In this document: positions 2,433-64,000 of the stretch, one piece after another | How positions within the stretch are numbered: position 1 is the first letter of the stretch | How the letters are laid out: every line of letters starts with the position of its first letter | Assembly: GCA_020055645.1 (NCBI GenBank) | Contig: CM034546.1 | Coordinates: 93,124,001-93,188,000 of the forward strand | From: Tomocerus qinae | Lineage: Eukaryota; Arthropoda; Collembola; Entomobryomorpha; Tomoceridae | Reading direction: 5' to 3' | DNA: 64,000 nt | Position numbers and translations under genes: made by a program | Notes under the pieces: model-generated | Told to the model about the DNA's origin: nothing | The model's input: only the letters and a program-made list of their open reading frames with translations | Databases searched by the model: none

Positions 2433-4441
2433 ATGTACACAAGTACAATCATCAGCAGCTATAATACTATAGCTAATGCGGAGCACACATTGATTATGAA
2501 ACCTCCGGTGAAAAAACAGCCGAGGAAAACCAGGAATTTCGCGATGGAGAGCAGAGGAAACAGTGCAGATGCAGACTCGCCGAATTTTGTAAATCTCAGT
2601 TTGCTCCCGGAAATTCCACAAGTGTTGCCCGGACTCGAGTGTCTCGCAGCTCTTCAGTCGGTCATCATCAAACCTGACAGAAGTAGGTACGCTTTCTTTC
2701 TTGTAACGCTCAACGCTCTCTGGCTGATTTAACCATGTATTTTGTTTGTTCAAAAACTGAATTTCATTTTTTTTCTCATGTCAAAATTACTTTGCATGTA
2801 GTCTCTCCATACCCATTCTAAAATATGGAGTTTTTTGCTGTCTTCTCTTTCGTATTGATGTTTCAGTCCAGTTTTAGGGCTCAGCCTCAGCTTACACTCT
2901 TGGATAGCTTACGCTTGTAGGAAATTAATTGATATTGATTTATTAATTTGATACGCCCACAGCTTAGCATATGGATTAGATTAAAATACGTAGTGAAAGC
3001 TTACAAAAACTATCCATTATGCTTAGCGGAGTAGAAAAGTAGGATAATTTATTCGCATTAACAGGGACAAATGACAAAAATGTTTGTTTTACTGTATGTT
3101 ATTATAGTTTGTGGATCAGAGTACCGGAACTTTGGCTTCACTGTGAACATTGAAGGAGGCGAAAACATTCTGAAATGTGTTCCAACGGATCCAAGCTGCT
3201 GTAATTCAGCTCGATCTTTAACGTTCATGAGTCAAAACGATGTGCCCATTTTGAATATCAAAACAGACGGCTCATACTGCTGTTCATTATTTACAGTAAT
3301 AAGACTTTCTAACCTCTTTTCCCTAATACATTTAGCATATTATGCATATTTTATATTATTACGACTTATATCATAATGGTATTTACAACTTCCGAGACTT
3401 GGCTGGTTTCCTTACTTGGGTCATGTCATGGTTCGGTGGATAAACTCGGGAAATTGGACAGCGGCGCACGCATTAAGTTATTTACTGTGGAAGACTGTGG
3501 ATTTTGACTACATCGCATCTCAGAGCTGTAGTATATAAACAGTAAATGCATATATTTACAGGCCTATCCGTTCTATGTTACAGGATCGTGAAGCTAAGTT
3601 GACCATACCAGCCGGAAGGCATTTTGGAACGATCGTGAAAACTGCTTATGGAGCTTGCAATTGTGGTCACAAGTTTACAATCAACTGCTTTGGGAACGAG
3701 AGTGAGAAAGTCGTCTTTGATGTGGATATCATCCTGTCTCCATCCGAATTTCGGGTATATAACCCACCATATGCATACTCAGTACTATAAGCTAGATCAC
3801 TTTACTAAAAAGATAAGTAAAACCCCAAACGAGAGAAGCCGGAAAATGCCTTAGGGATTTTCCTACTCTCTCTCTTCCTTTTTCCTATTATTTTGAATGC
3901 CCTACGAAGGCCTTGGCTGTAATAACGGGCTCCTCCGTTGAGCTCTGTCATTCTGTCCTGAATTTCGGGCTATGCTGTTATTATTACACATGTAATTAAT
4001 GCACTTACTTAGAGGCTACGTTGTAACTGCTAACTAAAGTTTTAATTGCTTTCAGATCAAGCGGAATGACGAAGTGGTGGCGAAAATGATTTCCCAGCGA
4101 GCTGGCTGTTGGAGCTTTTACAAATTGAGCTTCACACAGGAAGAGCTTAGCCCAAATCTCAAAGGACTGTTTATCGTCTTTGCCATGGTTCTGGTGCGGA
4201 TCCCTCTTAATACATTCGACAAAAATAAATCCATTACACTTTAACCTCCATGATATATAGTCGCAAATTCGACTCTTGTCCTTATGTAATGACAACAGGA
4301 CAGAGAGCCTGGCTAATAACATTTTATTATCTTTCCTCCTTACAGCACATCATATCGTTGGAGAATGTCAACACGTGCAATTGCATGTGCATGTGTTTCG
4401 CTGGAGTTTGGAGTGCGGCATTGATTTTATGGTGTGCTTAA
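2433..4441 (+). CDS. gene A: divergent phospholipid-scramblase-like membrane protein
   Basis: Five exons: 2433-2682, 3108-3295, 3584-3754, 4056-4193, 4346-4441, giving 280 aa. Introns are GT-AG with phases 1,0,0,0. The N-terminus has a basic, Pro-rich stretch (about residues 24-34), then LPGLECL (65-71), matching the PGLEYL motif that precedes the domain in scramblases. Residues about 85-235 follow the family's beta-strand pattern, including an IPAGRHFGTIV segment where human PLSCR1 has a PPG...GYV segment. A hydrophobic helix (about 237-252) follows. The last exon adds a CxCxCxC linker (260-266) and a second hydrophobic segment ending at the stop. Known scramblase-family proteins move lipids between leaflets or act in signalling; activity here is inferred only. 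The start may be 2433, 2496 or an unseen upstream exon. Where B, C and D have Asp after the first helix, A has His250. Confidence 0.78.
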
Positions 4442-7400
4442 AATTTCTCGGAAACTCATTCCAGACCAGTACCATGCCATGTCACATGAAAATTCCGTAC
4501 AATACCAGTAGAAGCACCAAAACGAAGACTAATTCTATCTTATGTCTTTTCCTGAGTTGACCTGACTTGCGTTACGTTACATTACAGCAGCAGCAGGAAT
4601 AATAACAACTCTATTGGATTTGTACATGCCGACTGCCAAAAACGATTGCAGGCCGGCCATGAATACTTACAGCTGGTTTTCTTTTTTTTTCTTATCAACT
4701 AGGAATGGGAAGCGGTGGATTTCATTCGATAGACAAAACGTGCAAGATGTGAGAAGATGAAACGAACAGAGGAAATTATTCTATAAGTATACATATATAT
4801 ATGCTATAAGATATACAATATTGATGTACCTATATTTAACGAGCGAAAACCAAAGGTCTAGCTAGATTAAACTAACTACCATAAATATACCTACTTGATG
4901 TTACTAACCAAAGAAAATCAAAATAATAATGGCGTTTGTGGATGTTTTCATGCATGCTATCTCCATTTTGCCATCTGTATCAAATTATAAATGTTGTGTA
5001 AGTAGTAAGTAGGCATTGTCCACACCCGTCGACCCTTATGCATCCTTTGTGTGTAAAACTATTAATTGATACGACTTATCTGTACGGAAACATGTTGAAG
5101 CTATTCTAATAGTATAACAGAGAGTCAGAAAATCTCTATTCTATATTGTTGTATGTAGTGCTATGTTCAGATTCCAAGGATGTTATATAACTAGGTACCT
5201 ACTCTTCTACTCTTCCTTATAACTGCATGACCTTCCTACATCTATTACTAAAGAGATGATATAGCTACCGAAATAAATCTTTATAAATGTGAAAAGTAAA
5301 ATTATCTTTAATTACCTACAACAACCATGAGATTTCCAGTTTAGAAATATTCTACGAATATATACCTTTCAGATCGGATCAATCGATGTATATTATTATG
5401 TACTTTGTTATAACAGATTCGCTTTGAGATTGTTTATACTTGTGTCGTGTGTGTTTGTGAGCTCGTCTTAACAGTGTTAGTATTATACTATCATATATTA
5501 TTGTACCCTAAAGTTTGTTGATCCACAGAAATAAATTAGCAATGTGGCATTGTGTATGTGTACCAATCCAAAAAGGAAAGTGCATAAAGCATATTCTATT
5601 TTGGTCCCTGGGCCCAACCTGTAAGTTAACCATGTTAAATTGCACGTAGAAACGAACCGATGGGATGGAGGAGCTATCGCTCTACTATTATGTATATAAG
5701 TTATAATCATTAAGGCATAGCATTATACTTCCATACAAGTAGATAGCTGCGATAGGTGTACATGACAAACCTATTTATCTTTACATAATGCATACTAGTC
5801 CAAAATGGCCACGTACGACAACATACTTTGTTAATGACAGTATGACCTACCTACTACATGATTGGCTAATTTATTATAATGGGAAAATAGCATTTAGTTT
5901 TCAGGAACAGTAATCTAATAAGGTACAAGTGAACGAAAAGCTTATCGAATCAAACAATGCCATAAATAGTGATATGCTGTATGTTGGAATGCATTCCATA
6001 CATAATTATATTCAGTGCAAATACCTTTGCATTATTTTGATGGTATCCCTCGCCCGGAAAAGGGAAATGTAGCCAAAGAAGCAGAGAATGTAAAATTAGA
6101 AATGCCTCCGTTAAATTGGTTAGTTTGTGTGATGTCATTTATTTTCATTGCTCTGGAGCACGGCAGATCAAATAAGTATTATTCCGTAGCCAATAATGCA
6201 GGTCTGCATTGCTGTAAACAACAATTTTGAGTTTTCACCTCAGCCCGAGTTCTATCTTTACTTTTATACTTGGGTGGGTTAAACTGATTGTCAGTTGAGT
6301 GGAATGCTAAGTAGAAATACTACCTGTGCCTACGGAAGCGTTGAGAAAACCCATAAAATGATAAATCGATCCAAGATTTTTGGTGCCAGCATTAGTATCC
6401 GTCGTACATATTTATTCCTATGTAATACAGAACCCTATATATATTTCATGGAAGTTTACACTAACTTAGTCTATATCCATACTCGGCCACTCACTACGCA
6501 GCAGATGTAATTGAATTCGCTGTTCTATAACTAACAATTAGAGAAGTCTTGAGTTTGTTGGATTCCTTATAGCGAGTTGCCTGACAAGATGTATGTACAA
6601 CGCACTGGATTCATTTATTCCAGAAATTGGTTATATATTAGATTATGTGTATACACGGATAATATATGTAATCAATACCTAATTGTGAGTTGCATGGAGC
6701 ATGCTGAGAATGAAATGAAAAGTATATGTTTCACATTCACAGAATAAGTTTCCTCGGGCAGGTAGCTGAAACTAAGTAAGCGTACGCAGCTCGATCAGAC
6801 TTTGGATGGAGAATGGGAAAGCGATTGCACATTAATGCGAAATGTACTGAAGCGTTAAGGCTTTGTGTTCCATTATGTTTAGCCTATAGCTAATAGTTGA
6901 AGGAGAAAGAGATTTCTTTCTATCTCTGTTTCTGGTGGAGAAAGTAAAGTAAAAATCATTCTTAATATCCAAGTGGAAAAATTACAAGTTATATAGACAG
7001 GCCAATATAAAGATAAAAATGTTGGACGTACGTATGAAGATTTAGTCACATTCTGTGTCGCTTGAAATTGCTAGAATGTGGAAGGACACGTTATTGTGAG
7101 TTACTGAAAAGGATAAAGTTAAAGAAACGTAAAAGCACGCATCCTTCTTTTTTCTCACATTGTGAACATTGAAACGGAGCTTACGTACTCCATTAGAGGA
7201 ATGAAAAACGAAAAGGTCTCACCCATATATAGCACACACAAAATTTCTGATGTCTTTCGAGCATTAACCTCCACTCTAAAAGTCTCTCTGTCTTATTCAG
7301 ACTCTCTCCTTCATGTTTTCTGCACGTGTGCCAATTCTATATCTGCCAACTATTTTCTGTCCACACCACTTTCCCTTCATTTGATGGAAAGTTTCTGATT

Positions 7401-8783
7401 TCATTTGATTAGATACTGCTTCTTACGAAATAATGGTAACAGCAGCGTCCTATCAAATGAAAATATCTCATTAGCATTATTTAATTACTTTTCCTCCTCG
7501 CGCAGCTCTCCAGCTATTCCAACCATGTATTTGTATAAACACAATCTGTTTTATTGCGCTTTTAGTTTTCGCATTTCGTAGCGTAAACAAGCCTACTTTC
7601 CCTCCAGGCCATATCACTTACATAAAAGTAAAAGCTTATTTAAAAGTCATCCCTACCTCTTCAATTTTCAACTTAAGCTAACGCCCAAGAACATCCAATA
7701 ATCAGAATTGCAATACACTATTTAAACAGTCACTAATGCATATTTTAATTATGTATACGCAACAAACATGAGCATCACTGCATTTTCAAGTACTAATCTG
7801 GAAATCAAAGAGCCTGTGTAAATAGTCATTTCGTGCATGGTTCTCCCTCAGAAATCAATAAAAGAACTGTGGGGCACTCAAAGCTAATTAATATTAATGA
7901 TATGGTGCATTATTATGCATTATAATTTAATACATGTAAGTGCTGTGTCGAAGAATTATGTCACTGCCCAGCATACAGCCAGCTAGTATAGTTACGTATA
8001 AGTCCTTATTAATACAGAATGGAAAGGGTATCTATAAATGAATTAGGAATCAGTCACAAACTACTGAATTGGACAGCTGTACTGTAAACAAACTTTCCAA
8101 TTCCAACTATAGCAGTCAACCATTGTATATATTATGTTACATAATTATCGCCAAACACTACGTAGTTAACAACTTGCCACTACAGCTCAATTTACAATCT
8201 ACTGCACTGTTGCAAATACAAGTGAAATATATTGACATTACCACTAGAGTTGATTCTGCACTTGTACTTGTTTACTTTGTCATACAACACAAATATGAAA
8301 CACTACTATCCTAAACTAAACCTTAACATAGCAATGTCTGTTTCGGCTGTCTCGTTAACTAATAAACACTAGTTTCAAAATACCGCAAATATCTACTGTG
8401 TACTCTGTAGCATTTGTGGACTTTACAGAACCCAACTATCTACTATACTTAAAATGTTAGTTTATGTGTACATTTACTAACTACATTGTACTATAGTCTT
8501 ATACATTCTAAGTTAAATTCACATTTGTCCTAACCCATATAAAACTGCCACTTTATTTGTTGAGTAATTGTATATAATTAAAACAGAATCGCAGTAACGA
8601 CTAAATAGTAGCATTAGTACTCACTCACCCTATATGTAATATACAACCTTGATGAATGATGAACATAAAAGATGTAGAATATCAAAAATCATTGAAAGCT
8701 CATGATAAAACAAAATATTGTGTCGGTAGGTAGAATGAGGATCTGTATTTCGATAATATCTGTTGGGTGCTGGGTAGGTAGTG
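4442..8783. other. intergenic spacer between gene A and the LTR element
   Basis: No supported gene. AT-rich sequence with a short AT dinucleotide run near 4790-4810. Open frames up to about 95 codons occur but lack domain-like composition or paired splice sites. No clear AATAAA lies close behind the gene A stop; the first one I see is near 5270, so the 3' end of gene A is undefined. Confidence 0.45.
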
Positions 8784-9271
8784 TATTAGGCCGTATAATA
8801 TGGCCTGCGCTGATGCACTATAAGAGAAATGAGCGGCAGAGGGAGAGGAGGAGCAAATCAAACAACGACGACGAAACCCAACTGACTCAGAACACTCTTC
8901 TTCGGGCTTAGGCCCCGACCACTACTCTTCGGCTCTAGCTCCTGCAACGACAATCTTGTTGTGGTCTGCCTGTCGTGCTTCGCCATTCCTTCAAATCTTA
9001 TTTTCAATTACCTTTGATTATTAATTATTATTCTTTCAGTTACTACTACTACTTATCATTTCTTATTGAATCTATTTGAGTGCAAATATCTGGCTAAATA
9101 ATAATTGAACTGTGAGATAAACTATTATTGCGTTGAACTGGCATTACTGTATCGTGGCACTATAGAATTCATCCCCCGAGAACCGGCAATCATACTTGCA
9201 CCGCATCCGTTGACTTTATATTATTGTTTAGTGACTGGTTTGCAAATAGTAGCCTACCCTTCTCACTAACA
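8784..9271 (+). repeat. 5' LTR (488 bp)
   Basis: Begins TATTAGGCCG and ends CTCACTAACA, with the same length and apparently the same sequence as the copy at 12223-12710. It contains a purine-rich stretch near 8830-8860 and a (TAC)-type short run near 9040-9055. The promoter and polyadenylation signals expected in an LTR are not obvious by eye. Confidence 0.93.
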
Positions 9272-9272
9272 G

Positions 9273-9290
9273 TGGCGCCAACGTGCTTTA
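9273..9290 (+). other. candidate primer binding site of the LTR element
   Basis: TGGCGCCAACGTGC starts one base after the 5' LTR. A leading TGG is expected because it pairs with the CCA end of the priming tRNA, and TGGCGCC-type sites are common in retroelements. I cannot assign the tRNA without a search. Confidence 0.75.
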
Positions 9291-10225
9291 ACAGTTTTGC
9301 CAAAATTTCGACGTAAATTTGAAGACTTCTCATGCAAAAATCCTGACCGGCTGTTTCTACTACATTTTGGCTACCCTTACCTTCAACAATTACCTGCACT
9401 GTATTCGGCATTCTACTCTTGTTTGGTAAAACAGTATCGTTCCATTTCATATAATATTAAAAATAATATTATGCAACTTATCACTATTGCAGACATTTTT
9501 ACTGAAAATTTTTTAAGATCAGGCTTTATAAAAATTCAGCCATCTCAATTACCTGCTACCTACACTGAACATAAAATTTGTCTTGGCGTAGAAATTCTTT
9601 TCAATCGGCGATTGTTTTTACAGAATTTCAACGAATTGTCTACCACTCTAATATATTGTTCCATGAACGGTTACAAATTCTTTTCACTTACCTTACTAGA
9701 GTACCTGCAAACAAGAGTGAACGAAAACTAAAAATTAACTTAACCTATTCTAATATCATTTTATTTAAAAATTTTAGAAAATTCTTTTTGCGTATCTTTT
9801 CGCCCCGGACTTCGTTACAGCCGAAGAATTTGGCTGTTCCTTCTACTACCGGCGGCCATCTTTTCTACTCCCATGCCTCTTTTTACAAGGACATTTCCAG
9901 AACGAGAAAGAAGTTCATTCGCACCGGATAACCTTATCTACATAATTTCAATAACTACGTCTACCCAGCTTGGTATGCACATCGCACTTATCACTATTTT
10001 ACCTACATTAATCTACGTGAATATTATTCTAATTCTTGAAACCTACCTATTGCATAAATCCTATTACCACGTATCCTTTATATTACTTCAATAATTCAAA
10101 TTAACTTTTCTTATTCATTCAAATTATTATTACGACTTTAAGTCGGCAGTCATTATCATTTTTCAACAGCCACACAGAAACATTTTAATAGTACTATTTA
10201 GGCGTTTCTTGTATGACTGACTGAA

Positions 10226-10846
10226 ACAGAAGAGCACAATCTCGTAACCAAATTAGGGAAAGACAAGAGCTAGAGTTAAAACAAAGGCAAGCACAGGCAC
10301 GACAATACTTACCTACTCCTACAGTACATTCTAATCCTGATCTAGACGCTATCTTAGAAATAGTAGACGACAGACTTACTAAACCTTACTCAAAATCTTT
10401 AATACTCAACATTCTGATACTATTTTACTAATTCTCCTATCAATAATCAAATCATGGTCTATCCTAATATTACCCAAAAAATTCTAAATGATATTCCTGA
10501 GAAAAGACGTGACCTTTTACAGAGATACATTCAACAAGCAATACAAGCTGCACTAGATGCAAATGCTGCTCGTGGTAACCGTATTGCTGGTAACCTACAA
10601 GCAAATGCAATCATTCCTGCACAACAGCAACTAAATAATTTACCTCAAGATTTACATAACATGTCAATTATTGTCAATGCTCCTAATCCTAATATGAAAA
10701 TTCTTTTTTATGATTCTAAGTCTAGTACTGCAAACAACTATCTTCATGATGTTGAAACTTATTTTCGAGTACAGCATTACGACCGTGACCTTTGGTTTAA
10801 CTTGATTCTTAATATTTTAGCAAAGGAAAATAAGCAATGGTACTGA
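10226..10846 (+). pseudogene. broken Gag (capsid-like) remnant of the LTR element
   Basis: Two adjacent frames make one Gag-like remnant. The first (10226-10431) has no ATG, is rich in Gln, Arg and Glu, and ends in a TAA. The second starts at ATG 10454 and runs 130 codons to 10846. Near its end the residues FYDSKSSTANNYLHDVETYF lead to a final ...KQWY. A Phe, then a hydrophobic/aromatic 'YL..VE.YF' helix, then a closing 'WY' is the usual capsid signature of Ty3/gypsy Gag. The frame stops exactly after WY, and no zinc knuckle or pol follows. The protein is therefore truncated and probably non-functional, although the short frame could still be translated. Confidence 0.7.
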
Positions 10847-11220
10847 TTCACTTATACAGACAATGAAAGATTTATATTTTCATTTACATTTATTTACTAA
10901 TAATATAATATGCATACATTTTCAGTTGTAATAACGATAAAATACTAATAATGTTAACTACTACAAATCTTTCACATTAATGAAATATGTTAATCTCAAA
11001 TATGCATAAGATATAAGATTGACTTTACTAGAACAATGAAACCTTATTCACATTTCTACTGATTATTTCAGTCGTTCTATTCCTGAACGTATTAAAGATT
11101 TTCTTTAAGTTTAGCATCTACTAGCCTAGCCTATCAGAAATAATAGAATATGTTAGTCTGATTTTCTCTCACGATAAAATGTACGCGATTAAGAGTGGTA
11201 TTTTGTATAATATGTATATT

Positions 11221-11430
11221 AAAAATCCTGTAGCAATTAAAAATTCTCTCAGGTAGTGCAGCTAGCGCAATGCTTCTCGCACAATGTATAGAAAATCCTA
11301 TAACGGCTCAGTCCTTCATAGGTAGTGCAGTGACGAAATATCACTCGCACATTATAATATAAAAATCCTACAGCGAAAATATTTCCTCGTAGGTAGTGCA
11401 GCTGGCGACAGGCCTCTCGCACAAATAGGG
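11221..11430 (+). repeat. three 70-bp tandem repeats inside the LTR element
   Basis: Units start at 11221, 11291 and 11361. Each begins AAAATCCT, has GGTAGTGCAG in the middle and closes with CTCGCAC. They have diverged in between, so they are older than the insertion. Their role (RNA structure, packaging or an internal terminator) is unknown. Confidence 0.8.
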
Positions 11431-12210: not shown

Positions 12211-12222
12211 GGAGGGGGAGAG
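12211..12222 (+). other. polypurine tract of the LTR element
   Basis: GGAGGGGGAGAG directly abuts the first base of the 3' LTR, the position where the plus-strand primer of reverse transcription is made. This fixes the orientation of the element as +. Confidence 0.85.
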
Positions 12223-12710
12223 TATTAGGCCGTATAATATGGCCTGCGCTGATGCACTATAAGAGAAATGAGCGGCAGAGGGAGAGGAGGAGCAAATCAA
12301 ACAACGACGACGAAACCCAACTGACTCAGAACACTCTTCTTCGGGCTTAGGCCCCGACCACTACTCTTCGGCTCTAGCTCCTGCAACGACAATCTTGTTG
12401 TGGTCTGCCTGTCGTGCTTCGCCATTCCTTCAAATCTTATTTTCAATTACCTTTGATTATTAATTATTATTCTTTCAGTTACTACTACTACTTATCATTT
12501 CTTATTGAATCTATTTGAGTGCAAATATCTGGCTAAATAATAATTGAACTGTGAGATAAACTATTATTGCGTTGAACTGGCATTACTGTATCGTGGCACT
12601 ATAGAATTCATCCCCCGAGAACCGGCAATCATACTTGCACCGCATCCGTTGACTTTATATTATTGTTTAGTGACTGGTTTGCAAATAGTAGCCTACCCTT
12701 CTCACTAACA
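12223..12710 (+). repeat. 3' LTR (488 bp)
   Basis: Direct repeat of 8784-9271 with no difference that I could find by eye. It is followed immediately by AGTG, the same four bases that precede the 5' LTR. Confidence 0.93.
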
Positions 12711-12714
12711 AGTG

Positions 12715-14810: not shown

Positions 14811-14814
14811 ACAT

Positions 14815-15915: not shown

Positions 15916-15959
15916 GATCTGAATTCAAAATAAAAATTTATTTTTGCATTGTCAGTGAG

Positions 15960-16642: not shown

Positions 16643-16670
16643 CACAGACAGACGGACAGACAGACAGAAA
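16643..16670. repeat. (GACA)n microsatellite
   Basis: A short imperfect run of GACA/GACG units on the + strand. No gene significance is seen. Confidence 0.8.
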
Positions 16671-19072: not shown

Positions 19073-21329
19073 ATGGAGGATACTTGTGAGCTTTCCACTA
19101 CTTTGATATCAAAACCGAAACCGGAGGAAAACAAGAATTTCGCTGAGTTGTCTGCTTCATCTCAAGTCACCCGTGTCGATATTCCAATGAGAAATAAGTT
19201 CGACTTTGAGTTTTTAGATGAATTCATACGATTCGACGTAACTAGAACAGGTAATAAATAATGCACCCGATTTTCCGTCCTAGATTCCTGGGAGTTTTTT
19301 GATCCATAATCCGTGCTATATTCTTTCAGGGGTTTATTGCTGCTCAGGCTACGAAATCAGTGTTCAATATGACGACTATTTTATAAAGGGGAAATCCGAC
19401 GCTTTGTGTTGTGGAATGATTTCCACAGAGAATTCTATAAGTCTGAAACACGATAATGAAGTATTTTTACACGTTAATTTTTTATCATCAATGATCAGGT
19501 GTAGATCAAAGGTAAGTAAACTCAATGCTGTAACTACTATGTACTAGAATCCAATTACTTTTTTTTTACTTAATGGTAAAATTAATGCATTAGAACAGAG
19601 GATTTGCAATCAAAGTGCCAGGCGAAGATAAATGCTTGGGAACGGTTCGTATGAAAAAAATAGGACAAACTCTACTAGAAGTCGAGAATCTGATAGAAAA
19701 ATGTTCCTTTACTACTGAAAAAGTTGATCATAATCTTTATTCCGTAAGTAAGAGCAACTATATTCGTTGCAATTTGTTACAGTTTAATTTTCAGACTTAT
19801 TTTTTGATTTATCTTCAAACGAGAGTATTATTTAATATTCCTATTTCTGCCATGCAATGCAGGTTTCATGTGAAAACGGAACTCAAGTTGCTACAATTGC
19901 CGTTTATAGAGATTTTCGCGGAGGAATATCAACATACGGACTCACTTTTATATCTGACACGAGTCCTCTGAACAAAGCCTTATTAATTGCCTTAACGCTC
20001 TCCATGGTACGTTTCATGAGATATTGCCACAGTTCCAGTTCACGCACTATTTCACTCTTTATTGTTTTATTACTGTCATTGTGTCATTTAACTCAACAAT
20101 TCTCCCAACTAGAGTGACTCTTTCATTTTCCTCGATTGTTATCTCGGCTCTACTAGTCCCGAACACAGTTTGGCTCACTTTCCGCCACAGCATACTGCAC
20201 GAATGCACTCTAACACGCCTGGAATTGTTGGTGCGCATGATGTCAGTTATTTTGCATTATTACATCCACATGTTTTGTCGGTTTTAGACAGCTTAATTTT
20301 CATCAATTTGGCATACAGTTGTATGCAAGGAAATCAGCATATTTAAAATTAAGAGATAAATCGGTACTATTAATAACTCACCCCAGGCCCGTATAATGTT
20401 TATAATACGTATGTACAAAGGTGCCTATAAGACAGTCATAAAATGAATCTCTATATTTTGTACACCTTGATATCGAGTAGTCCTTACAACCTAAGACGTG
20501 GTTGACAACTATCGATACCTCTTCGGCCCGTATTATTGGTCTAAGTTCTGAGATCTCCCCAAGACGTCCAAAAAGTTTTTGAAAATCAGCTTCTTGACTG
20601 CTTCTAATGAAAATTAGGCAAAGGTTATAATTCAGTTATTGATTTCCTGTAAACAATTAATGTTAACTTCAAAATTGTACTTCATTATTTAGGAGGCATA
20701 AATCTGAAGAGTTGACAATGTAATCAAATCTGTAAAGTTAACAACTTTCCAGGGTTATTTAGCAGTTAGCCGTAATCGTTATTATTTACAATAATATGTA
20801 GCAATATCCGATGTCAGGCGAACACTAATCCTACATTCGCTGAAGTGGATGTTACTTATTACCACGAACATAAGATAATAAATATCTATCTGTTAGAGTT
20901 AAATTCATATAGGAACATTACCAGGACTTTTATTTATATCAATATATCTGTTGTTAGTACTTTTGTCAATATACTTATTTCGTTCAAAGTTTCCCTTATA
21001 AAGACAAATTTTATGCTTGTTTTTGTAGCATTCTGGATTTCAGTATCCACATAAAATTATATGGCTAACAATATACGAACTTTACGCTATACCTATGTTA
21101 TTAGAATCTTTGACGGGAATTGATAAGAGTTGGCAGTTGTAATATTATCTGCAAAGCTGTAGGAGTATACATATATACGTATTTGCTGAAGGAGTTTTAT
21201 TTTCTTTTTTGGCAGGATATAAGAGAACGTGAAGCGGAAATGAGCTGTTGTTTTTGCTACATACCCCTGATAGCGGCAGTTATCATATTACTGTTTGTAT
21301 TCTTGCCACTGATGTTCATTTCGGACTAG
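19073..21329 (+). CDS. gene B: divergent phospholipid-scramblase-like membrane protein
   Basis: Five exons: 19073-19250, 19330-19511, 19594-19743, 19863-20006, 21216-21329, giving 255 aa. All introns are GT-AG with phases 1,0,0,0 as in gene A; the last intron is long (1.2 kb). The N-terminal 60 residues are polar and lack the PGLExL motif. Residues about 61-205 follow the scramblase strand pattern, with a KVPGEDKCLGTV segment and the typical closing order of polar strand, Leu-rich strand, then helix (NKALLIALTLSM, 207-218). The last exon starts with Asp219, equivalent to the Asp inside the scramblase C-terminal helix, then has CCFC (229-232) and a strongly hydrophobic helix (about 234-252) before the stop. 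It is probably tail-anchored or a two-pass membrane protein; lipid transport is not shown. AATAAA lies 18 nt after the stop. Confidence 0.8.
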
Positions 21330-28101: not shown

Positions 28102-28329
28102 TTTAAGTGTGCTCTTTCATACTCTTTTATACTCCCACTTTAAAATTAGGCTTCATTATTTCATACTTTAGTTTGTAAATTGCTCTACTAAAACACTAAT
28201 TTCGCACAATATCGATTTGTTGAGTCATGCCAGTATAAACTCGGGTACATTCATTCCTAATACAGTAGGTATGCATATGATCTGTATTGGAATTCTATCT
28301 TACTAGTACTTATACGTTCTAGGTATATT

Positions 28330-28812
28330 TGTGGTAGTCCAGAAGAGCAGGGGCGCCAGTAGCGCTATTGGCTAGTCCACAGGAGCACTGCTCTAAGGGC
28401 TTAGCCATAGGCGCTATCGACTTTAGTACATAGGAGCAGTTCTGATTTCTTTGCATTAACAGTACATATTTATTAAAAATATTATTATCAGTCATTATAT
28501 TATTAGTCATTAGTTAATATTGCATGAAAATACTTTGGATACAGTAAAATTAATAAGTACCATCATTAAATTAGTGAATCAGAGTAAAGGAGATTAATCT
28601 CAGTGAACATTAATACAATTATTGTTGCCTAAATTTGACCAAGGTCCTACATTAGATTCGTTTTCCCATGAGTCTATGATTCCTTTACCACATTGTAATT
28701 GAAGATTTCCATGTCCACAGGAGCACTGCTCTACGGGCTAAGCCCGTAGAGCAGTGCTCCTGTGGACTAGCCAATAGCGCTACTGGCGCCCCTGCTCTTC
28801 TGGACTACCACA
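28330..28812. mobile_element. MITE-like inverted-repeat element with internal palindrome
   Basis: The first 76 bp (28330-28405) are repeated in inverted form at the right end with one mismatch. The ends read TGTGGTAGTCC and GGACTACCACA. TATT flanks both sides (28326-28329 and 28813-28816), fitting a 4-bp target duplication. The inner part of the right arm (28713-28767) is itself a palindrome of two 27-bp arms with a one-base centre. The interior of about 300 bp is AT-rich and non-coding, so the element is non-autonomous. Confidence 0.88.
28713..28767. repeat. near-perfect 55-bp palindrome
   Basis: GTCCACAGGAGCACTGCTCT and its reverse complement form arms of 27 bp separated by a single A. This sequence could extrude as a cruciform or form a long hairpin if transcribed. 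It sits inside the right arm of the inverted-repeat element. Confidence 0.9.
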
Positions 28813-28816
28813 TATT

Positions 28817-37440: not shown

Positions 37441-37475
37441 CGGATAACTTGTATAAAATGTTTCGTATATGAGGG

Positions 37476-37643
37476 TAGTGACGTCTTGTATATACAAAGG
37501 GATAGCCCGTATATGGATAGTGACGTCTTGTATATGCAAATGGATAGCCCGTATATGGATAGTAACGTCTTGTATATGCAAAGGGATAGCCCGTATATTG
37601 ATAGTGATATCTTGTATACGCAAATGGATATCTCGTATCGCAT
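37476..37643 (+). repeat. left-arm 42-bp tandem repeat (about 4 units)
   Basis: Units begin with TAG at 37476, 37518, 37560 and 37602. Because 42 is a multiple of three, several frames on both strands stay open here and give Tyr/Ile-rich peptides that are artefacts of the repeat. Confidence 0.88.
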
Positions 37644-38261: not shown

Positions 38262-38428
38262 ATATACAGGATATCCTTTTGCATATACAAGTTATCACTA
38301 TCGGGATACGAGATATCCCTTTGCATATACAAGACGTCACTATCCATATACGGGCTATCCTTTTGCATATACAAGATGTCACTATCCATATACGGGATAT
38401 CCTTTTGTATATACAAGTTGTCACTACC
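38262..38428 (-). repeat. right-arm 42-bp tandem repeat (about 4 units, inverted)
   Basis: Inverted counterpart of the left-arm repeat. Single-base differences between units and arms show that both arms have diverged since the element formed, or have been only partly homogenised. Confidence 0.85.
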
Positions 38429-38461
38429 CCCATATACGAAACAATTTATACAAGTTATCCG

Positions 38462-45662: not shown

Positions 45663-48600
45663 ATGAGTGATCCGTATTACCCCAGAGCCCCGCCAGGTAA
45701 AAAATCAATTTCGTTAACCTTATCTGGTACTACTACAACATTATTACTCCTATTTAGTACTTATAAGAATAATATTTATCGCTTCGAAATAAAATGATTA
45801 TCAGTCACTCCACCTATACCAGTTGACATTGACAGTGCAAGGATATCTTAATAATTTTCAGAATTCGACCGGCAGCCATCGAATTACAAAATTTATCGTC
45901 CTGAAGATTCGTTTTCGACTGTACCTTTAGGAGAAGTGATAACTGAGCAACCAATACAGTCCTATGGTTCACAAATATCAACGGGAATGCCCGCCTCGTT
46001 CGGAAGAACTCCAATGACAATGATTAGCCCTCAAGTAGGGATTCCATTGCCTGGACTGGAAATGCTTGATAGACTTCCATCATTTAAAGTTCATAATTCA
46101 GGTAAATTAAGTGTTCTAATCTATAATATTATATCTACAAGAGGAGTGCAGAAGTAAGCGATCGATGAGAGTACTTCATGAGTTTATCTCAATTTCCAAT
46201 TATATATTTCAGGCGTATGGAAAATGGAAATTCAAGTAGTCATTCATACGTGTTATTATTACTCATAAATATAGCCTGACTGATATTTCGCTTAAATACT
46301 TCAAGTAATCGAGATAGGAAAGAAAGAGAAGGATCTATTTTCAGTTAGCCTCTGTATTTATGAAAACACTTTAGAGAGTTGGGCAGAGAGAAGCGTTTCA
46401 ATCATGAATTACTCACACACTATCACCATGAATGTAGTACGAGATGTAATATCGTAGGGTCCTTGAATTTTGTTTCGTAGAAACTGCAACGTGCCAGGAA
46501 TTAAATAGACTAAAATCTTTTGTATCTCCAATTTTCTTTGGCAGACACGATAAAGGCTCTTTACTGTTTGCTATCATTTTAGAAATAAGACGTTGGCAAA
46601 GATAGTGAGGAACATCAAACCCAGGTGTCTTCCTTTAGGGAAAAGTACTCCTCTATCTAATCCTTTGATTCTGACAGAATCCATTCTATCTCATCTACAC
46701 GTAAGAACGTTTTAACACTTTCTTCAGTAGATATTTATATTCTGTCCTACCACCGTGGGCCTTTTCACTCAGTAGTATATACCTCTGAAACAAACCGAGA
46801 AAATGCCTATCAAACGGACTGAACCGAAATAAATCCTAGACACACGCCCATGCAGCCAACACTTCACTCACGATTTCCTAACGGAGACAGACATGCTCAT
46901 CGCATAACATAAAAACGTAACGAGTTGTAAGCAGTTTACAGCAAACTACTACTACAGTAGGCATCCCTTGAGTTTAGTAGACCATTTGCTGCAGCCAACC
47001 CACAAGTTAACATAAATTCAATCTGCAATATCCACGTTGTTCCTCACAGTACGTGACATTTATTATGACTGAGGTGTAGATATGTTGAGTTATTACTTGC
47101 ATAAAATTACTTTACGTGTTTGCTTCTGACTTGGTTACTCTTATTGCTCTCCAACAAATACGCGCTACAAAATACTATTATGTAATGTAAAATTCAGCGT
47201 TTATATTCAACGTTTTCTATACCTTGGTCTCTGGACACGAAATGTTCTATTATCTTCCCATAAATATTCTGAATATGTTTGCCGAACTCAAACACGACGA
47301 AATATTTAATTAGTGTTTCTCTTAGCTAACTATTCCTCTTGAGAATTCACATTATAAAATGTCAACACTAATACACGCGCCCGAATATTCGGCACCACAC
47401 ACGACTCGAAATTTAGAATTCTTGTTCGTAATTAGTGGGGCACGCAAATGTACGAATATTTTATCAGCCTTAAATGAGTTACTATCACGAACGATCCTTT
47501 CAAATTCCATTCTCTTTTGCAAAAACACGAAAACCGGAATAGGTAGGAAATGAAGTTCTTCAACCTTTAGTATTCCTAAGCTTTACTACCATTATAGGTA
47601 TAGTAGAGAGTGTATTTTTTGCATCTATAGGTATTACATAATTTGATACTTGACTCCTCTGGTTAGGTTTATTTATGTCACAGGATATTATGTCCTGCAT
47701 ATGTTCATGACAATCCAGTTGTGTAATGTCATTATGTCATATGTGTAGTTATATTTGGTCTTAATGAAAAAAAATTGATGTTAATAGCAGGCATATTATC
47801 TGGAGGCTCCACCTGCTCTCCTGGTTATAAGATTTATAACCTTAATGGTGAACAAATGCTCAAAGGCACCTCAGATACCCTGTTCTGCCCGTTCGACTCA
47901 AAGCAGAAAGCTGTTTCCATCAAGGATATGAATGAAGACTGCATTTTTCAAGTCAAGTTTACACCCTCCATCTGCGAATGTGACTCGGAGGTCAGTTTTG
48001 TAAAAAACTTACACGAGCAAATTACGTTTCCTCATTTTCATCACTTTTTGTTGACAAAAGTTTAGCAAAGTCATTTGTGACAAATGGAAAATAAGATTTA
48101 GATTGCTTTTCTGTATTTGATATATCTCGGGGGCTCACTAACAGCCCATTGTCACATAGAGTAACAACACAAAGTTCGTGGAGCCAAACAAATGTTGCAG
48201 TTCACATTGCATGACAGCGCAACTTTAATCTCCAATTCTGAAACAATCGATTCATGGAAAATGACCATATACTTTTTTACTATTTCAGGAGAAACGCTGT
48301 TTTGCGGTGTTTTCGCCCGTTTTCGAGAATCCATTCGGAGCGATCCTATTCGAAGCTGGACAGTTAAAATACTCTCTAAAGATCTTGAATGCTCTCGAGG
48401 GAGAAACATTTGCCGTTCAGTTTTTGGGCAGCTCTGATTTTACTGTGAGTCCTGTCTTCACTTTCACACTTGCAATAAACTATGTCCCCGTAGTAGTGTG
48501 AGCGCTATTCGTATTTGTAGTGCTGTAATAACGTAACTCAGTCTTCGGCTATCAACTTCCAACAAGGAAATTCTAGCACCCTCCCTTCTCCATTAGCTAG

Positions 48601-49442
48601 CATTTTTACGATTTTCGCTAAAATTCCGCCTTATGGTTCTTAAATTTTACTGCCCACACTTGCTCAACCTAGTTTTGTTTGGTTCTCTTCTGGTAGCTCT
48701 GAAGAGGAAAACTCCATTAAAGACGACTAGTCTTTTGAAGTGATTCTCACTTTTAAAAAATGACGGATGAATGGTCCAATTCCTTTGAACGGGCTCTTTG
48801 GATGTTTATTTGATTTCCTTTTTGCGTTTTTGTCTAGGGAATTACTTTTATCCTCACTTAACTTTGATTTACTTTTCCTCCCTCCTCCTGTGCAAAAATG
48901 TAGTAAACTTGTCGTGGTTGTGAAATTTTAATGAAATGTCTACAACAAGATTTCAAATGAACAGTCAATATTTCATTTTGCCAATTTTTGTTAACTGCTA
49001 TTTTACACTGCTCTGTTGTAGATAAAAGGAGCGGATGGAACAACCGTAGCCGTCGTAAATATTCATAGAAAGCGGGGAGAATGTCAAAAGTATACACTTA
49101 CACTTATGGAAGAAATCAGCTCAGCAAACAAAGCCCTTTTCATTGGTTGTATAGTCACTCTGGTAAGGACATTTGTTGAATTTTTGATAAAAGGGAAAAA
49201 GTCTATATGCGTATTATGTTCATTACTTTCTGACTATAAATCTATATTGTACTAAGTCTCATTGTGAACGTGTCGGTGGGAGTTTTGCTAAAAGGGCCTT
49301 TTAATTGTTTCAGGACCTAGTCAGTTGTGAAGGAGTTTGTACAAGATGTATTTGCTTAGCCCCGATTGTCCTGGCCTGTCTTACTATACTCGGACTATTC
49401 ATTGGTTCCGTAAGCTCAACAAAAGGACCACCTAAACTTTGA
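45663..49442 (+). CDS. gene C: phospholipid-scramblase-like protein, most canonical member of the cluster
   Basis: Six exons: 45663-45696, 45862-46101, 47791-47990, 48289-48444, 49022-49162, 49314-49442, giving 299 aa. Introns are GT-AG with phases 1,1,0,0,0. The N-terminal 70 residues are rich in Pro, Tyr, Ser and Gln (starts MSDPYYPRAPP), like the proline-rich head of scramblases, and lead into LPGLEML (74-80), the family motif before the domain. Exons 3-5 follow the scramblase body: Tyr-Lys-Ile strand, a Cys/Phe turn, a VFSPVFENPFGAILF segment at the PPG...GYV position, then a KGADGTTVAVVNI strand and the helix NKALFIGCIVTL (246-257). The last exon begins with Asp258, has Cys at 262, 266, 269 and 271, and a second helix (about 272-290), then a short polar tail. 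AATAAA lies 11 nt after the stop. Scrambling activity and calcium dependence are not demonstrated; no clear EF-hand-like loop is kept. Confidence 0.87.
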
Positions 49443-49452
49443 GTTCTGGCTA

Positions 49453-58172: not shown

Positions 58173-58911
58173 ATGGCCAAGACACTAATTTTGTTTTTAA
58201 TGATTACTTTAGCAGTTATCTTAGCAGCAAACGCCCAAGAGTACTATGATGATGCTGGTGTAGAAGATTCAGAAACCTCAGATGACTATAAGCTGGGTAA
58301 GAAAACTTTTCTTCTCGGTTGTATGAACATTCTAATTAATAAACTATTTTCACAGGAGATTTCAATGATTACATCTCCGGGAGAAATATCCGGCTGGTAG
58401 GAGACTTTGTGAAACGTGAAGTAAGTTGCAAAAGATTGAGTAACGGTGGGAGTAGATGCGTCAAATCCAACGGATCTGTGTATTACCTTGCAGCAGGCTC
58501 TCCATGAACATGTTGTTGATGTCGTCGTTGAAAACTTAAAAAAGTAATTTTCGTCTTGACATTTGTCCTCCACTCTAAATCTCAATTTCCCAATTTTGTC
58601 CGCGTTTTAATGTTTCTAACTATATTCTACTTGTTTTGCTATGCTTGAATTTTGAAAGAAAATAAATCTTGTCTTGGGAAAAAGGGAAACAAATCTTACT
58701 TTAAAATTGCTTCACCTAATCTAACTATTGCATACAGGAAAAGAAATCTAGTTTTTCTTTATTAGCATTATTACTTTTGAAATAAAGTTTATGTTATCTG
58801 CAGTTACAAAGTAAAGTGCGAAGAGATGTTGTAATTTTCGTAGCTCTCGGGATTTCTACAGCTATAAAAGGTACAAAGCCAGAAGGTGAGCACATCTGCA
58901 GTATAATATAA
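58173..58911 (+). CDS. locus E: small secreted peptide precursor with two alternative 3' ends
   Basis: Exon 1 is 58173-58296 (phase-1 donor G|GTAAGA) and exon 2 starts at 58356. Residues 1-21 are a classic signal peptide ending AANA, with likely cleavage before Gln22. Residues 23-38 are strongly acidic. A Lys-Arg site at 61-62 precedes the C-terminal part. Form 1 reads through to TGA at 58507 (91 aa); its tail has two Cys (66 and 76) enclosing a 9-residue loop. Form 2 uses the strong donor GAA|GTAAGT at 58420 and joins exon 3 from 58804 to TAA 58911 (98 aa); its tail holds an amphipathic/hydrophobic stretch DVVIFVALGISTAIKG after KVRR. A further donor at 58885 could extend it. The signal, acidic spacer and dibasic site suggest a processed secreted peptide. 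I do not recognise the family, so no activity is claimed. Confidence 0.6.
58661..58666 (+). terminator. candidate polyadenylation signal for the short form of locus E
   Basis: AATAAA about 150 nt after the read-through stop at 58507 and upstream of exon 3, consistent with a composite terminal exon ending inside the intron. Another AATAAA occurs near 58780. Confidence 0.45.
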
Positions 58912-61712
58912 TTTTACAAGCTCTCGCTTCTGTTTCCTGTTTACTTAAGGGATTATTTATCTTTCGAAGAAAAGGAAACTTGACTATTTACATGGCCAAC
59001 CATCCTTTAGAAGCTTTTGCCATTTGTCTTTAGCATCCCAATAGGGAAGATTAGCAATACGCTAGTCTTCGTTCAATTACATTTCCTATCTATTTTGCTA
59101 GCATTAAATCATAAATGAATTTCGAGAGCGAAAAGCAATCAACTGATTAGAAAACTTCCGGTACAATATTATATGATGGAAAATTGCAATTCCCAAAGAC
59201 ACAACTAAAATAAGAGAAAATGATTATTTCCCAGAAGCCTAGTTAAGCTTCAAGATCCGGTCGGAGTAGGAACTCGTTGTAATTAAACTCGCAATTGATT
59301 TTTCAAGAAGGATTCTGGGGTTACGACGACTAAGCTCCTTCTGTAGTTTAGTTTATCAGTTAGGACAAGGCTATGAAGAAGAAAACCGCTCTAAGGATTA
59401 AATTACGACAAGCTAAACTGCCTACGAAGTAAAACTGCTCACATCATACCATGTCTTACCACCCATCAACTATTTAACTACCTCGTTTTCAACATTTATT
59501 TACTTTAGAAACTTGTCTTTCATTTGAGGATGAATTCACCAGTACAAGTACAAACGGAAACACACTCCTACCTTCCACACACGTTTTCATTACTCTGCTT
59601 CCACTAACCACTGTCGGAACCGCACACTGTAATTACATTTCTCTCACAGGAACTGCGTCTTACAAAGTTTCATCTCACAAAAGTTAATCCACGTCCCTTT
59701 TATTTCCATAATTAGCACATTCAGCCATAAACACTCTATCTATAGAAAAATAGATACAGGCTCCTCGATACACTTCCAAAACGGTTCATAAACATCACTA
59801 TGGTCTACTGCTCTGGTCTGCTAATGCTAAGATAACTACGATTATATAGAACAAGTTTATTTTAATAACCAAAACCCAAAAACTGCCAAATCCCATCTTA
59901 ATTTTAGTACTCAAAAGTATTTATTTGTGTAATATTATCAAACACAACCCAAACATCTGCACTCTCTTTTAGAATTAAAAAAACAAAACTATTTCGCGTG
60001 TTAATCGGAATTAAATCGTTGAACGCAATTTCTCTGAGTTGCAAACTGCAAAGGGAATATTTATTTACTGAATATTCATATATATAGCAGTGAATATTGA
60101 ATACATAAAGTTGTGTGTATATAAGCAGGGCTAGGAATAAGAGGCTGAAAAAGTGATTTGGCCAAAGAAACAAATAACCCGAAACTTTTTTTAATCTTCC
60201 CAGTCAACGCTGCAAGGGAATACTTTTCATGCATAAATGATGAGAATAGCAATATGAGATGATTATGAGCGATGATCCCTTGATCTCTCAGCTATTTATT
60301 GCATATTGGTTGAGTTGACAAAACTGAAGTATTTAGGTGAAAACCGAACGGAAGGTCTAAGGCAAACTATCTGGGGCGAGTTAGAGTTGACTGACAAATG
60401 AGACTTGTAATCTACACAAAAAATCGCATTTGATCTTCTCATCATCGATAAATTACATAGTAATTTTCGAAGATAGCTGAGGGAGAGTAGCTACTAGACA
60501 TTTTGAAAAATAGGTTTATTACAATAGAAAGCGACTTGACTGACACAGTCATATATTATGAATGAAAAAGGAGTACATGGTTTATTTGGTAAAAGAAGCT
60601 GAGATTTGAGATAGGGATATAAGGATAGGAGAAGTCAGAGGGTAATAGCGATACGAGGCGGGGAACCAGACAGGACTCTTGGGATGTGATCTGGATACAT
60701 GTACTCACATTTTCTGTCTGCTTCATGTACATACTGATACATAATATTTGTACGAACATTACAATCTATACCTGCATAAAAATCTCTGCTCCTAAAAGTT
60801 TCCAAGAAAAGTTTTCGTTATATTTTCGAGAATTGATAAACTTTATAGAATGGTATTGATTCTTAGTAACATACTTTGTGCCTACTTCTACTGGATGCCT
60901 ATTTGAGGATAAAGACTCTGAAGAAACACCATAGGGCTAATAGCAACATTCCGAAGTAACAAGGATCATAAATCTTATTGGTGTGGATGTTATGTAAGAG
61001 TGATCACGGTGATCGGGGCTTTGCTCTTTCCTGTAATGTATTTCTTTCTAAATCCGATGAATTTCTGGATAAAAACTGAAGTAAATGGGTGTAACGAGGA
61101 ATTGGGCAGAGGAGAGAGGAGCGAAACAAAACAAGTCGAAGGACTGCTATATTGCCACTACTTACTTCTAACAAACAATATATGTAAGTTTGTATTGATC
61201 GGTGAAACTTTTAGAATGTAGAAATGACTCGGATGCCTTCCTTTCAAATACACTATTTTACTATTCTGCTTTCTTTGTCCGTATCTGAAGTTAGGTAGGT
61301 ACTTATACTTTATACGGAGTCTATCGAGTGAGTTAGTGAGTATTCTGTATAATATTGTGCATAGGCTCAATTCAGCTTTTGCTGGAACTCGAGTTCGTCT
61401 GACAAAATCAGCAGGAGCCAAAGTAGAGTAGTAAAGGAAAGCACGGGGAAAGTTCCTGCGCATCAGTTCCGTGCTGGCTGCCTTTCTCCAACTTTCTCAC
61501 ACTCATTTATCCTTACTAGTAGATAGGTACGTAATGTAACGTAACGAAATGAAACGCCAGACGATATTACTACCTACTCTAGTACTTTATACTATTCCGC
61601 TGCCAAGGGATTCATTTGAAAGGCTACCTCAGCCGAATTTTTTTGATTTCTTTCTTTTCCTTTGATTCGAGAGATAACTGGAGGCTGGAGCTGCAGCTGG
61701 AAGAGACATACA
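58912..61712. other. spacer upstream of gene D, no gene recognised
   Basis: No supported gene. Open frames are short on both strands and lack paired splice sites or domain-like patterns. The promoter of gene D should lie at the right end; no core element is convincing. Confidence 0.4.
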
Positions 61713-64000
61713 ATGGATACGAAAACTTGTCGTCGTGGTAAGTTGACTTAAGTCAAGTCTCGTCCTTGTCAAGTGACATGGATTTTTCATTTAAACTGTC
61801 CCCACATACCTTTTGTGTCTTTCTTTCAACTTTCCTGCATGCATTAATTTTCAAGTAGACTTAAGTTTACTTTCACGTTACGGAGGCCTATCCTCCGAAC
61901 CTTTTCCATTTGCTTGACTATCTTTCGCATTTTAGCAGAAATCAATACTTTTGCTCACATTCACATAGTTATTATATCGACTTTTCCATCGACTACCTAC
62001 CTATAAAAACTATATAGGACATACTTACATTTCCCATCGACAAGTCCAAAAGACATTAATAGATACCTGCGTTCTTGAGTTCGTTTAAAGGCAGGCAACG
62101 ACATGTTCGCCCGTTTTCCTTATCGTTAGTTCCTCGCAACTTGTTGGTGAGTGTAATACATTGAAAATTGAAGGTAAATATGTAGTTAGATAACCAGGCA
62201 GGACCCAACTCAAGACCTTTTGGTGCCCCTTATTCCACTCAAGTAGAGCTTGCCAAGGTTCCAGTCATTTGTAACTTGTAGATCTAGAAACAATTGAAAC
62301 TTACATTTGCACATCCTCTCCTCTAGATAGATAGTAGAACAAATTGACTTTTGCCAAGATTTTGGTTGATAAATGAGAAAATCAACTTCTGTTTCTTCTA
62401 TAGACGAAAACTGTTCACCTGTTGGAGTCTTAATGGAATTGGAAATGGAAACGACATCAATGGTTCGAGGTGACGAGGGGGATGCTGTACCTGAAATATT
62501 CGAAGATCAAAATCAAAACAGAATCAAAACTCAAGTCCAAACGGAGATAGACATGGAAACTATCAAGCTGAGGGTAAAAGGTGCGGAAGCTGACGAGTCA
62601 GAAGAGGAAATCATCTATGAAAATTCCATGCACTTCTTTCCATCTACTCCTGCTGACCTGGAAATTCTACGAACTATTCGAAAAGTCAACCTCAAGCTTT
62701 CTGAAAGTGGTACTAACTATAAATATTTATTCTTTATGTGCTAGTAAAATAGCCCAGTATATCGCCGATTACTCTGATTACCATCTGAACGTTTTTTCTT
62801 CACAGGTTTACCATGTAGTTATAAAATCACCGACGAAAGCCACGAATGTGTCTTTGAATCTTTACAAGGAGAAACGAACGGAGGAATTTGGTCTAAATAT
62901 TTCAGACAGCAACAAAAAATTATTCTGATGCAAGATAAAAATCAACATGCTATACTCAAACTGGAATTTGGTAGAAGCAGAACAATTTCGTGTTTTCAAG
63001 TAAGTCCAAAATCTTCTATAACATATAAAAAAATTACTATTTACTTAAGCCTTGGTGGAGGCAAATTAAGCGGATGATACTGGATATAAAATCATTAATT
63101 CAACCCATTCTCTGTCTATCTTCACAGACATTACGATTTGTGGCAATGACACTACATTTTAAATCGAAATCTGAAGATCCTCTGTGCATAGTATTTAAAG
63201 ATCGAGGGTGTTTCATTTGGTCTTGTTGCTGGTCAACAGTGAGATAATTACCATATTTTATATTAACTATAATGAGCTATTACACTGCGTGTACCTATAT
63301 TAATTACTAAACGGTGATTTTTCTAAAGGTCACTTATGAGACGGTTCCCCAATCGGATAACGTGAGTTCTTTCACGGTGTCAAGCAAAAGACAATGGAGG
63401 AACAAAGCTGAATTTATGGTAAAATCCTTTTACATTCATTCATGGATAACTACGCACGCAATTTTCACATATATTACAAGAGCAATAAAACAGAAAGTCA
63501 TTCGAATCTTTCACCTTCTCTTTTGTCTTTGTATTTGCTTTAGGTAAAGCATAGTGATGGGTCGATTTTAGCGTTTATCGACCGAGAAAAGAAATCCTAC
63601 ACTTTAACTATGGGAGAAAACTTAGGGCCTAGTATGAAGGTTTGCTTAATTGGATTCGTTATCGCAATGGTAAGTCGTAGGTTCAATTCTATTGAAGCTA
63701 ACCATTTATAAATAGCGTTTAGCAATAAAATTGAATCAATATTTCAGTCAATTTTGTAAATTCGTCCTAATGGATTGCTTTATAAAGACAACGAAGATAG
63801 TAGTAGCCTCTGCATGCATTTGTCGTGCATAATTAATAACTTTGCTTTTCTTCGCTTACTCAGGACATAATGGACAGGGAAGATACGGGGAAGTTGTCGT
63901 GCAGGTTGCGCCCAAGTACTTATGTAACCATTCTCTTTCTACTCATCCTCTTTTTGATGATTGGAGCATTTCTGCTGCATTTTATCATGGCGATGATCTT
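61713..64000 (+). CDS. gene D: divergent phospholipid-scramblase-like protein, 3' end outside window
   Basis: Seven exons: 61713-61737, 62404-62706, 62806-62999, 63128-63238, 63329-63418, 63544-63669, 63864 to beyond 64000, giving at least 328 aa. Intron phases are 1,1,0,0,0,0. A tiny first exon (8 codons + 1 base), as in gene C, joins the phase-compatible acceptor TTTCTTCTATAG. The N-terminal about 100 residues are acidic and Glu-rich. At the PGLExL position it has PADLEIL, so Gly is replaced. The body keeps the strand pattern (SYKITDE, KIILMQDKNQHAILKL), and an extra phase-0 intron splits what is one exon in A-C. The helix MKVCLIGFVIAM (272-283) is followed, across an intron, by Asp284, a Cys at 295 and a long hydrophobic helix (about 303-325). 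An alternative start at 62373 is in frame but less likely, because a strong acceptor lies inside it. Confidence 0.8.

Follow-up and report, generated by a model that had tools for sequence, protein, structure and literature searches.

The four genes and their intron plan

The stretch of DNA analysed here, hereafter the window, comprises 64,000 nucleotides of the collembolan Tomocerus qinae (GenBank assembly GCA_020055645.1, contig CM034546.1, positions 93,124,001 to 93,188,000 of the forward strand), and positions below are counted from its first letter. On its + strand we assembled four multi-exon genes, named A to D, with open frames and GT-AG introns whose splice sites were chosen by hand; they appear to be strongly diverged relatives of the phospholipid scramblases. 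Gene A spans 2433-4441 and encodes 280 amino acids (aa), gene B spans 19073-21329 (255 aa), gene C spans 45663-49442 (299 aa), and gene D starts at 62373 and reads for 331 aa up to the window end (64000) with no stop reached. Together they have 22 exons, all open and with GT-AG borders except that the last exon of gene D is cut by the window end, and 18 introns, GT-AG throughout as chosen. The exons are listed below. The stretches between shared introns are called blocks, and the ranks are those obtained with leave-one-out exon profiles against the other six-frame segments of the window (2157, or 2158 for block 3).

Gene A exon 1: 2433..2682, + strand, Met1 to the PGLECL segment, ends in phase 1; in-frame stop just upstream; PGLE peptide rank 3
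Gene A exon 2: 3108..3295, + strand, rank 50 of 2157
Gene A exon 3: 3584..3754, + strand, rank 163 of 2158
Gene A exon 4: 4056..4193, + strand, canonical C-terminal helix; donor CTG/GTGCGG; rank 1 of 2157, narrowly (with the end at 4187)
Gene A exon 5: 4346..4441, + strand, Cys-rich segment and second hydrophobic segment, TAA; rank 95
Gene B exon 1: 19073..19250, + strand, peptide at the PGLE position rank 613
Gene B exon 2: 19330..19511, + strand, rank 1
Gene B exon 3: 19594..19743, + strand, absent from the match list
Gene B exon 4: 19863..20006, + strand, canonical C-terminal helix; rank 1
Gene B exon 5: 21216..21329, + strand, CCFC and second hydrophobic segment, TAG; rank 1
Gene C exon 1: 45663..45696, + strand, 34 base pairs (bp), MSDPYYPRAPP, phase 1
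Gene C exon 2: 45862..46101, + strand, PGLEML segment, ends in phase 1; PGLE peptide rank 1
Gene C exon 3: 47791..47990, + strand, rank 1
Gene C exon 4: 48289..48444, + strand, rank 477 of 2158
Gene C exon 5: 49022..49162, + strand, canonical C-terminal helix; rank 1
Gene C exon 6: 49314..49442, + strand, CTRCIC and second hydrophobic segment, TGA; rank 2
Gene D exon 1: 62373..62709, + strand, acidic N-terminal part, PADLEIL, ends in phase 1; two in-frame stops just upstream; peptide at the PGLE position rank 141
Gene D exon 2: 62806..62999, + strand, rank 4
Gene D exon 3a: 63128..63238, + strand, third block split by an additional phase 0 intron
Gene D exon 3b: 63329..63418, + strand, other half of the split third block
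Gene D exon 4: 63544..63669, + strand, canonical C-terminal helix; rank 2
Gene D last exon in the window: 63864..64000, + strand, second hydrophobic segment, cut by the window end; rank 1455

The intron phases are 1,0,0,0 in A and B, 1,1,0,0,0 in C and 1,0,0,0,0 in D. Gene C has one additional 5' intron and gene D one additional intron inside the third block, and the four sites common to all have phases 1,0,0,0, in line with the original prediction of four same-strand genes with common intron positions and phases. The gene structures given there hold in overall plan and needed changes of detail: the end of the window truncates D, C begins with an exon of 34 bp, and the last donor of A is shifted. 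This donor, at the end of exon 4, had been placed at 4187 (GTTCTG); we dropped that site for 4193 (GTGCGG), which puts the intron at the same codon in all four genes, a fit that was itself one reason for the choice. The corrected donor adds two residues to gene A, and with it the last shared intron lies 10 residues after the same Lys in all four genes, directly before the position that corresponds to human Asp301, which is occupied by Asp in genes B, C and D and by His in A. In-frame stops lie just upstream of the first Met in A, B and D. The product of the 34-bp first exon of gene C is Pro-rich, as is reported for the start of canonical scramblases.

Coding signal and exon recovery

Our comparison with non-coding stretches of the window showed that codon-position bias is significant in all four genes, since 8, 10, 11 and 16 of 1000 random stretches reached the values of A, B, C and D, respectively. 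In the leave-one-out searches, block 4 of A, B, C and D ranked 1, 1, 1 and 2, with narrow margins for A (E value 0.013 against 0.018 for the best other segment) and for D (0.019 against 0.0089), and block 2 ranked 50, 1, 1 and 4. The tail exons ranked 95, 1, 2 and 1455 and the PGLE peptides, which were chosen by hand, 3, 613, 1 and 141; for block 3, where three genes were covered (D being left out), A ranked 163, C ranked 477 and B was unlisted. On sequence alone, blocks 2 and 4 are clear in B and C; the support for block 3, for exon 2 of gene A and for the last exons of A and D comes from position, phase and splice sites.

These results bear on the idea that one or more of the four are pseudogenes, decaying copies that diverged without any new function. 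The last donor of gene A (CTG/GTGCGG) does depart from consensus, the third-block exons are unrecognisable by sequence alone in the three genes covered and the tails of A and D are hardly recognisable, all of which would fit decay. However, all 22 exons are open with GT-AG borders, one being cut by the window end, and the codon-position bias is significant in every gene, and we therefore regard decay as very unlikely.

Profile comparison with scramblases

As a yardstick we used two canonical scramblase domains entered by hand, part of human PLSCR1 and an insect-type scramblase. These probes score E 5e-99 and 4e-89 in Pfam, and their motifs CCCPCC, GKISKHWTGI and D[A/S]DNFGIQFPLD match those in a portion of PMC8202325. 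The four genes were aligned by an intron-anchored scheme, in which the blocks between the shared introns are flanked by 24 residues ahead of the first intron and 7 beyond the last one, and which avoids using any knowledge of scramblases. Gene A was two residues short in the earlier Pfam, pairwise-shuffle, tree and decoy runs and in all alignments except the final intron-anchored run.

Compared with both probes in hhalign, the intron-anchored profile scored 47.3 over 176 columns, a value that 0 of 400 shuffles reached (maximum 21.0), and 67 E. coli decoy pieces, run against it before the gene A correction only, peaked at 18.3. With the corrected gene A the score was 46.2 over 177 of 211 columns (P 1.6e-6), again reached by 0 of 300 shuffles (maximum 23.7), and reversed probes gave 17.0. 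In combination, 0 of 700 column shuffles reached the intron-anchored scores of 46.2-47.3. The human probe alone scored 44.4 and the insect-type probe alone 30.7 with the intron-anchored alignment. A motif-trimmed domain gave 36.5 over 173 columns (0 of 300 shuffles, maximum 24.4; reversed 14.4), other MAFFT modes, trimmed, gave 39.8 and 45.0, and the 67 decoy pieces peaked at 18.9 against the trimmed MAFFT domain. Pairwise, gene A against the human probe had a local z of 8.5 with 0 of 1000 shuffles reaching its score. The corresponding counts per 1000 for the human and insect-type probes were 0 and 3 for A, 20 and 11 for B, 2 and 2 for C, and 4 and 75 for D; between the genes they were 6 for A-B, 0 for A-C, 91 for A-D, 0 for B-C, 8 for B-D and 0 for C-D.

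A number of results weigh against this relationship and have to be set beside it. The match between profiles depends on the alignment, the less robust ones scoring 19-33 and some of them lying near the controls. The first whole-protein alignment against both probes gave 25.4 over 63 columns (P 0.0078), untrimmed MAFFT alignments gave 26.3-32.8 and their body alone 19.3, and the intron-anchored body alone gave 32.2. When A, B, C or D was left out, the intron-anchored score was 26.7, 47.7, 37.7 or 42.5; the motif-trimmed score was 36.4, 35.8, 23.5 or 23.5, the last two being inside the shuffle range (maximum 24.4). The shuffle controls cover the motif-trimmed domain and the intron-anchored alignment of all four genes, the decoys the trimmed domain and the intron-anchored alignment. 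The local similarity of A and D is not above chance (91 of 1000), D reaches only 75 of 1000 with the insect-type probe, and the leave-one-out searches recover the last exons of A and D poorly. The canonical probes were entered by hand rather than retrieved, and a profile of the two alone also fails to detect the exons of A-D. A PDB profile search with the four-gene profile returned 5 rows, with no scramblase and no Tubby or LURP-one protein among them.

The single-protein searches point the same way. The curated cut-off of the Pfam Scramblase family PF03803 is 25.4 bits, and it was reached by none of the four proteins: C scored 12.3 (12.8 trimmed), B 11.8 (trimmed only), and A and D had no match. 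The search against this family, set beforehand both as a check and as a possible refutation, accordingly gave the outcome named there as refuting, no hit above cut-off (best 12.8 versus 25.4 bits). Other families rank as high as PF03803 or higher for C, D and A, all below cut-off: YpsA for D (E 0.0078 whole, 0.0029 trimmed), a phospholipase A2 family for C (0.057 and 0.05) and DUF7699 for A (0.15 and 0.093). As a control, 10 other proteins or open reading frames (ORFs) of the window were searched, and 4 of them gave six random-family matches at E 0.034-0.089. Since random matches arise at like E values, sub-cut-off Pfam matches are no evidence, and we dropped single-protein matches as proof of family. 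An NCBIfam search with proteins A and B only gave no match.

It could therefore be asked whether A-D are an unrelated family of tail-anchored proteins that share a PGLExL motif and a hydrophobic helix with scramblases by chance. Such a family would explain the absence of a Pfam match above cut-off for all four proteins, of an NCBIfam match for A and B and of any scramblase from PDB, as well as the weak scores of several alignments. It would leave unexplained, however, why the intron-anchored profile is collinear with the probes over 176-177 of 211 columns and lies beyond all 700 shuffles and 67 real decoys, with reversed probes at 17.0, and we consider it improbable. Because the intron-anchored profile matches from one end of the domain to the other, with scores well beyond those of the shuffles and of the real decoys, the sequence comparison indicates that the homology of the group to scramblases is real; it is strongest for A and C, and the signal of B or D on its own is weak. 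The family claim of the original prediction, although it found no backing in the curated profile scans, gained it from the intron-anchored match and is probably right overall.

Changes in the conserved motifs

At the place of PGLExL, gene A reads LPGLECL, C LPGLEML, D PADLEIL and B FDFEFL, so the motif is kept in A and C, as originally proposed. Positions 1, 3 and 9 of the Ca2+ loop are described in a portion of PMC8202325 as crucial for the activity of human PLSCR1. In the alignment used for the six-taxon tree, positions 1 and 3 are C and S in A, G and S in B, and E and Q in C, and they are deleted in D; the EF-hand-like loop pattern (Asp at 1 and 3, Phe at 9) is thus found in none of the four, both Asp being lost in each. 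The stretch ahead of these positions is shortened in all four genes, Phe at position 9 is kept in A and B only, and position 12 is acidic in A, B and C. The lost Ca2+ loop speaks against scrambling activated by Ca2+, and A-D, to judge by these residues, are probably no longer Ca2+-activated scramblases.

The cluster CCCPCC, the Cys palmitoylation cluster of PLSCR according to the same portion of PMC8202325, is eroded to one or two Cys (YCCS in A, RCRS in B, CECD in C and SCF in D). Scramb1 and Scramb2 have non-redundant roles in fly nephrocytes, as part of PMC11335299 reports, and the palmitoylation Cys of Scramb1 is required there. In B, C and D the first residue encoded by the last exon is still the Asp301 equivalent; A has His at this place.

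A second hydrophobic segment at the C-terminus

In all four genes the last exon encodes a second hydrophobic segment, which follows the canonical C-terminal helix. The best 19-residue tail hydropathy is 1.95 in A, 2.99 in B, 2.76 in C and 2.94 in D, and the best separate 19-residue window at the old helix gives 1.74, 0.97, 1.88 and 1.67, with 1.71 for the tail of the human probe. From its hydropathy, the tail segment would form a helix. In A, B and C it is directly preceded by Cys, and D has one Cys some nine residues ahead of it. Since human PLSCR1 is single-pass with a short tail, as stated in part of PMC9002267, the tail segment of the window genes is extra, and the PLSCR arrangement in which the C-terminal helix is the last hydrophobic segment of a single-pass protein is seen in none of the four.

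Divergence and copy number

Identity among A-D over the intron-anchored domain is 20.7-30.7%, which bears out the very different primary sequences noted originally. A six-taxon tree joined B with C (82), then D (98), then A, and separated the canonical probes from them (100). On this tree about 2.0 substitutions per site lie between B and C, versus 0.59 between the two canonical probes, as measured with the hand-entered probes and with gene A two residues short. Of the earlier suggestion of an old or fast-evolving local expansion, it is the fast part that this comparison favours.

The exon profiles of all four genes revealed no fifth copy in the window; outside the four genes the best segment had E 0.15 for block 2, 0.66 for block 3, 0.051 for block 4 and 0.35 for the tail. 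A profile of A-D and the two canonical probes listed the domain exons, and its best other segment (E 0.53) came slightly ahead of gene B exon 1 (E 0.78). Used by themselves, the canonical probes gave nothing significant in the window (best E 1.3), and no canonical scramblase is visible there. Further searches returned nothing: the two probes against bacterial and archaeal genomes and against viral contigs, the human probe only against plasmids by tblastn, and a B and C alignment against viral contigs. Each genome and viral scan used two short peptide patterns.

Could A-D be ordinary scramblases, old and divergent but working, whose second segment makes a two-helix membrane hairpin? Their domain is collinear with canonical scramblases, B, C and D retain the Asp301 equivalent, position 9 is Phe in A and B, and position 12 is acidic in A, B and C. 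Yet in all four the two key Asp of the Ca2+ loop have been lost by replacement or deletion and the stretch before them is shortened, and B and C lie more than three times as far apart as the two canonical probes do. We think this explanation unlikely, though less so than chance resemblance or decay.

Other elements in the window

Between genes A and B lie direct repeats at 8786-9265 and 12225-12704, each of 480 bp, identical over this core and 99.4% alike over 500 bases, with an interior of about 3 kilobases; the whole is probably a young element of the long terminal repeat type. An ORF within the interior (10418-10843), labelled gag-like by us, had no significant Pfam match. Between genes C and D, 58173-58507 may hold a gene of two exons whose product would be a small secreted peptide with Cys residues, 91 aa long and with a signal-like N-terminus; Pfam gave no match for it. 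An inverted pair of 42-bp tandem arrays (37441-37638 and 38264-38461) has arms that are 90% complementary and 625 bases apart, and an inverted repeat with 80-bp arms (28327-28406 and 28736-28815), 98% complementary, resembles a small foldback element. An Rfam search of the window found nothing.

Discussion

Based on our findings, we propose a scheme for the origin and present state of these genes, and we consider it rather probable: A-D would be four paralogues that arose by local duplication of one PF03803-type gene, diverged fast, became tail-anchored and probably lost Ca2+ scrambling. In this scheme each protein would be a cytosolic beta-barrel of the scramblase/Tubby type, and the old C-terminal helix may still pack into the barrel. 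The new segment of the last exon would be a helix that anchors the protein in the membrane from its C-terminal end, and the Cys near it are possible acylation sites. With Ca2+-triggered lipid scrambling probably gone, the most likely job of these proteins would be that of a membrane-tethered adaptor binding lipid or protein, under relaxed or diversifying selection. We infer that A-D form a fast-diverging local subfamily of tail-anchored proteins with a putative scramblase fold.

The likeness to the PLSCR/Scramb family (PF03803) lies in PGLExL in A and C, the collinear domain, the Lys-led C-terminal helix and the Asp after that helix in B, C and D. Unlike its members, A-D score below the Pfam cut-off, have lost the Ca2+-loop Asp, have an eroded Cys cluster, do not conserve the human nuclear signal GKISKHWTGI, carry an additional C-terminal hydrophobic segment and, although neighbours, are only 21-31% identical to one another. 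A part of PMC4725246, citing Bateman 2009, describes the Tubby-like / LURP-one-related superfamily as having a barrel of 12 strands with a C-terminal helix in its interior. Should the barrel model be right for A-D, their old helix would correspond to this central one, whereas their tail segment is separate; the comparison was made by the PDB profile search only, which found no such protein.

Among the matches listed in a search of open-licence papers, no title dealt with a divergent invertebrate scramblase gene cluster, which is weak evidence of absence. What this analysis adds is the match between profiles together with its controls, a corrected splice site, the additional tail segment common to all four genes and the loss of the Ca2+ loop. 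Nematodes have eight scramblases, human and mouse five, Drosophila two and one ant three, according to part of a preprint (PMC12458967), and these counts agree with the original statement that animals carry few scramblases. Such counts presumably rest on detectable similarity, and four neighbours under the Pfam cut-off suggest that they can miss local subfamilies. Tentatively, and with less confidence than for the scheme above, we suggest a lineage-specific radiation of scramblase-fold proteins that family profiles do not see and that have shifted their membrane anchor to a new helix. If this is true, published counts of animal scramblases could be too low. The seating of the canonical C-terminal helix is called not clear in the portion of PMC4725246 concerned, and the tail segment of A-D offers a natural test of it: with the barrel helix and the anchor separate, the dispute over whether the C-terminal helix of PLSCR is transmembrane or buried in the barrel would become directly testable.

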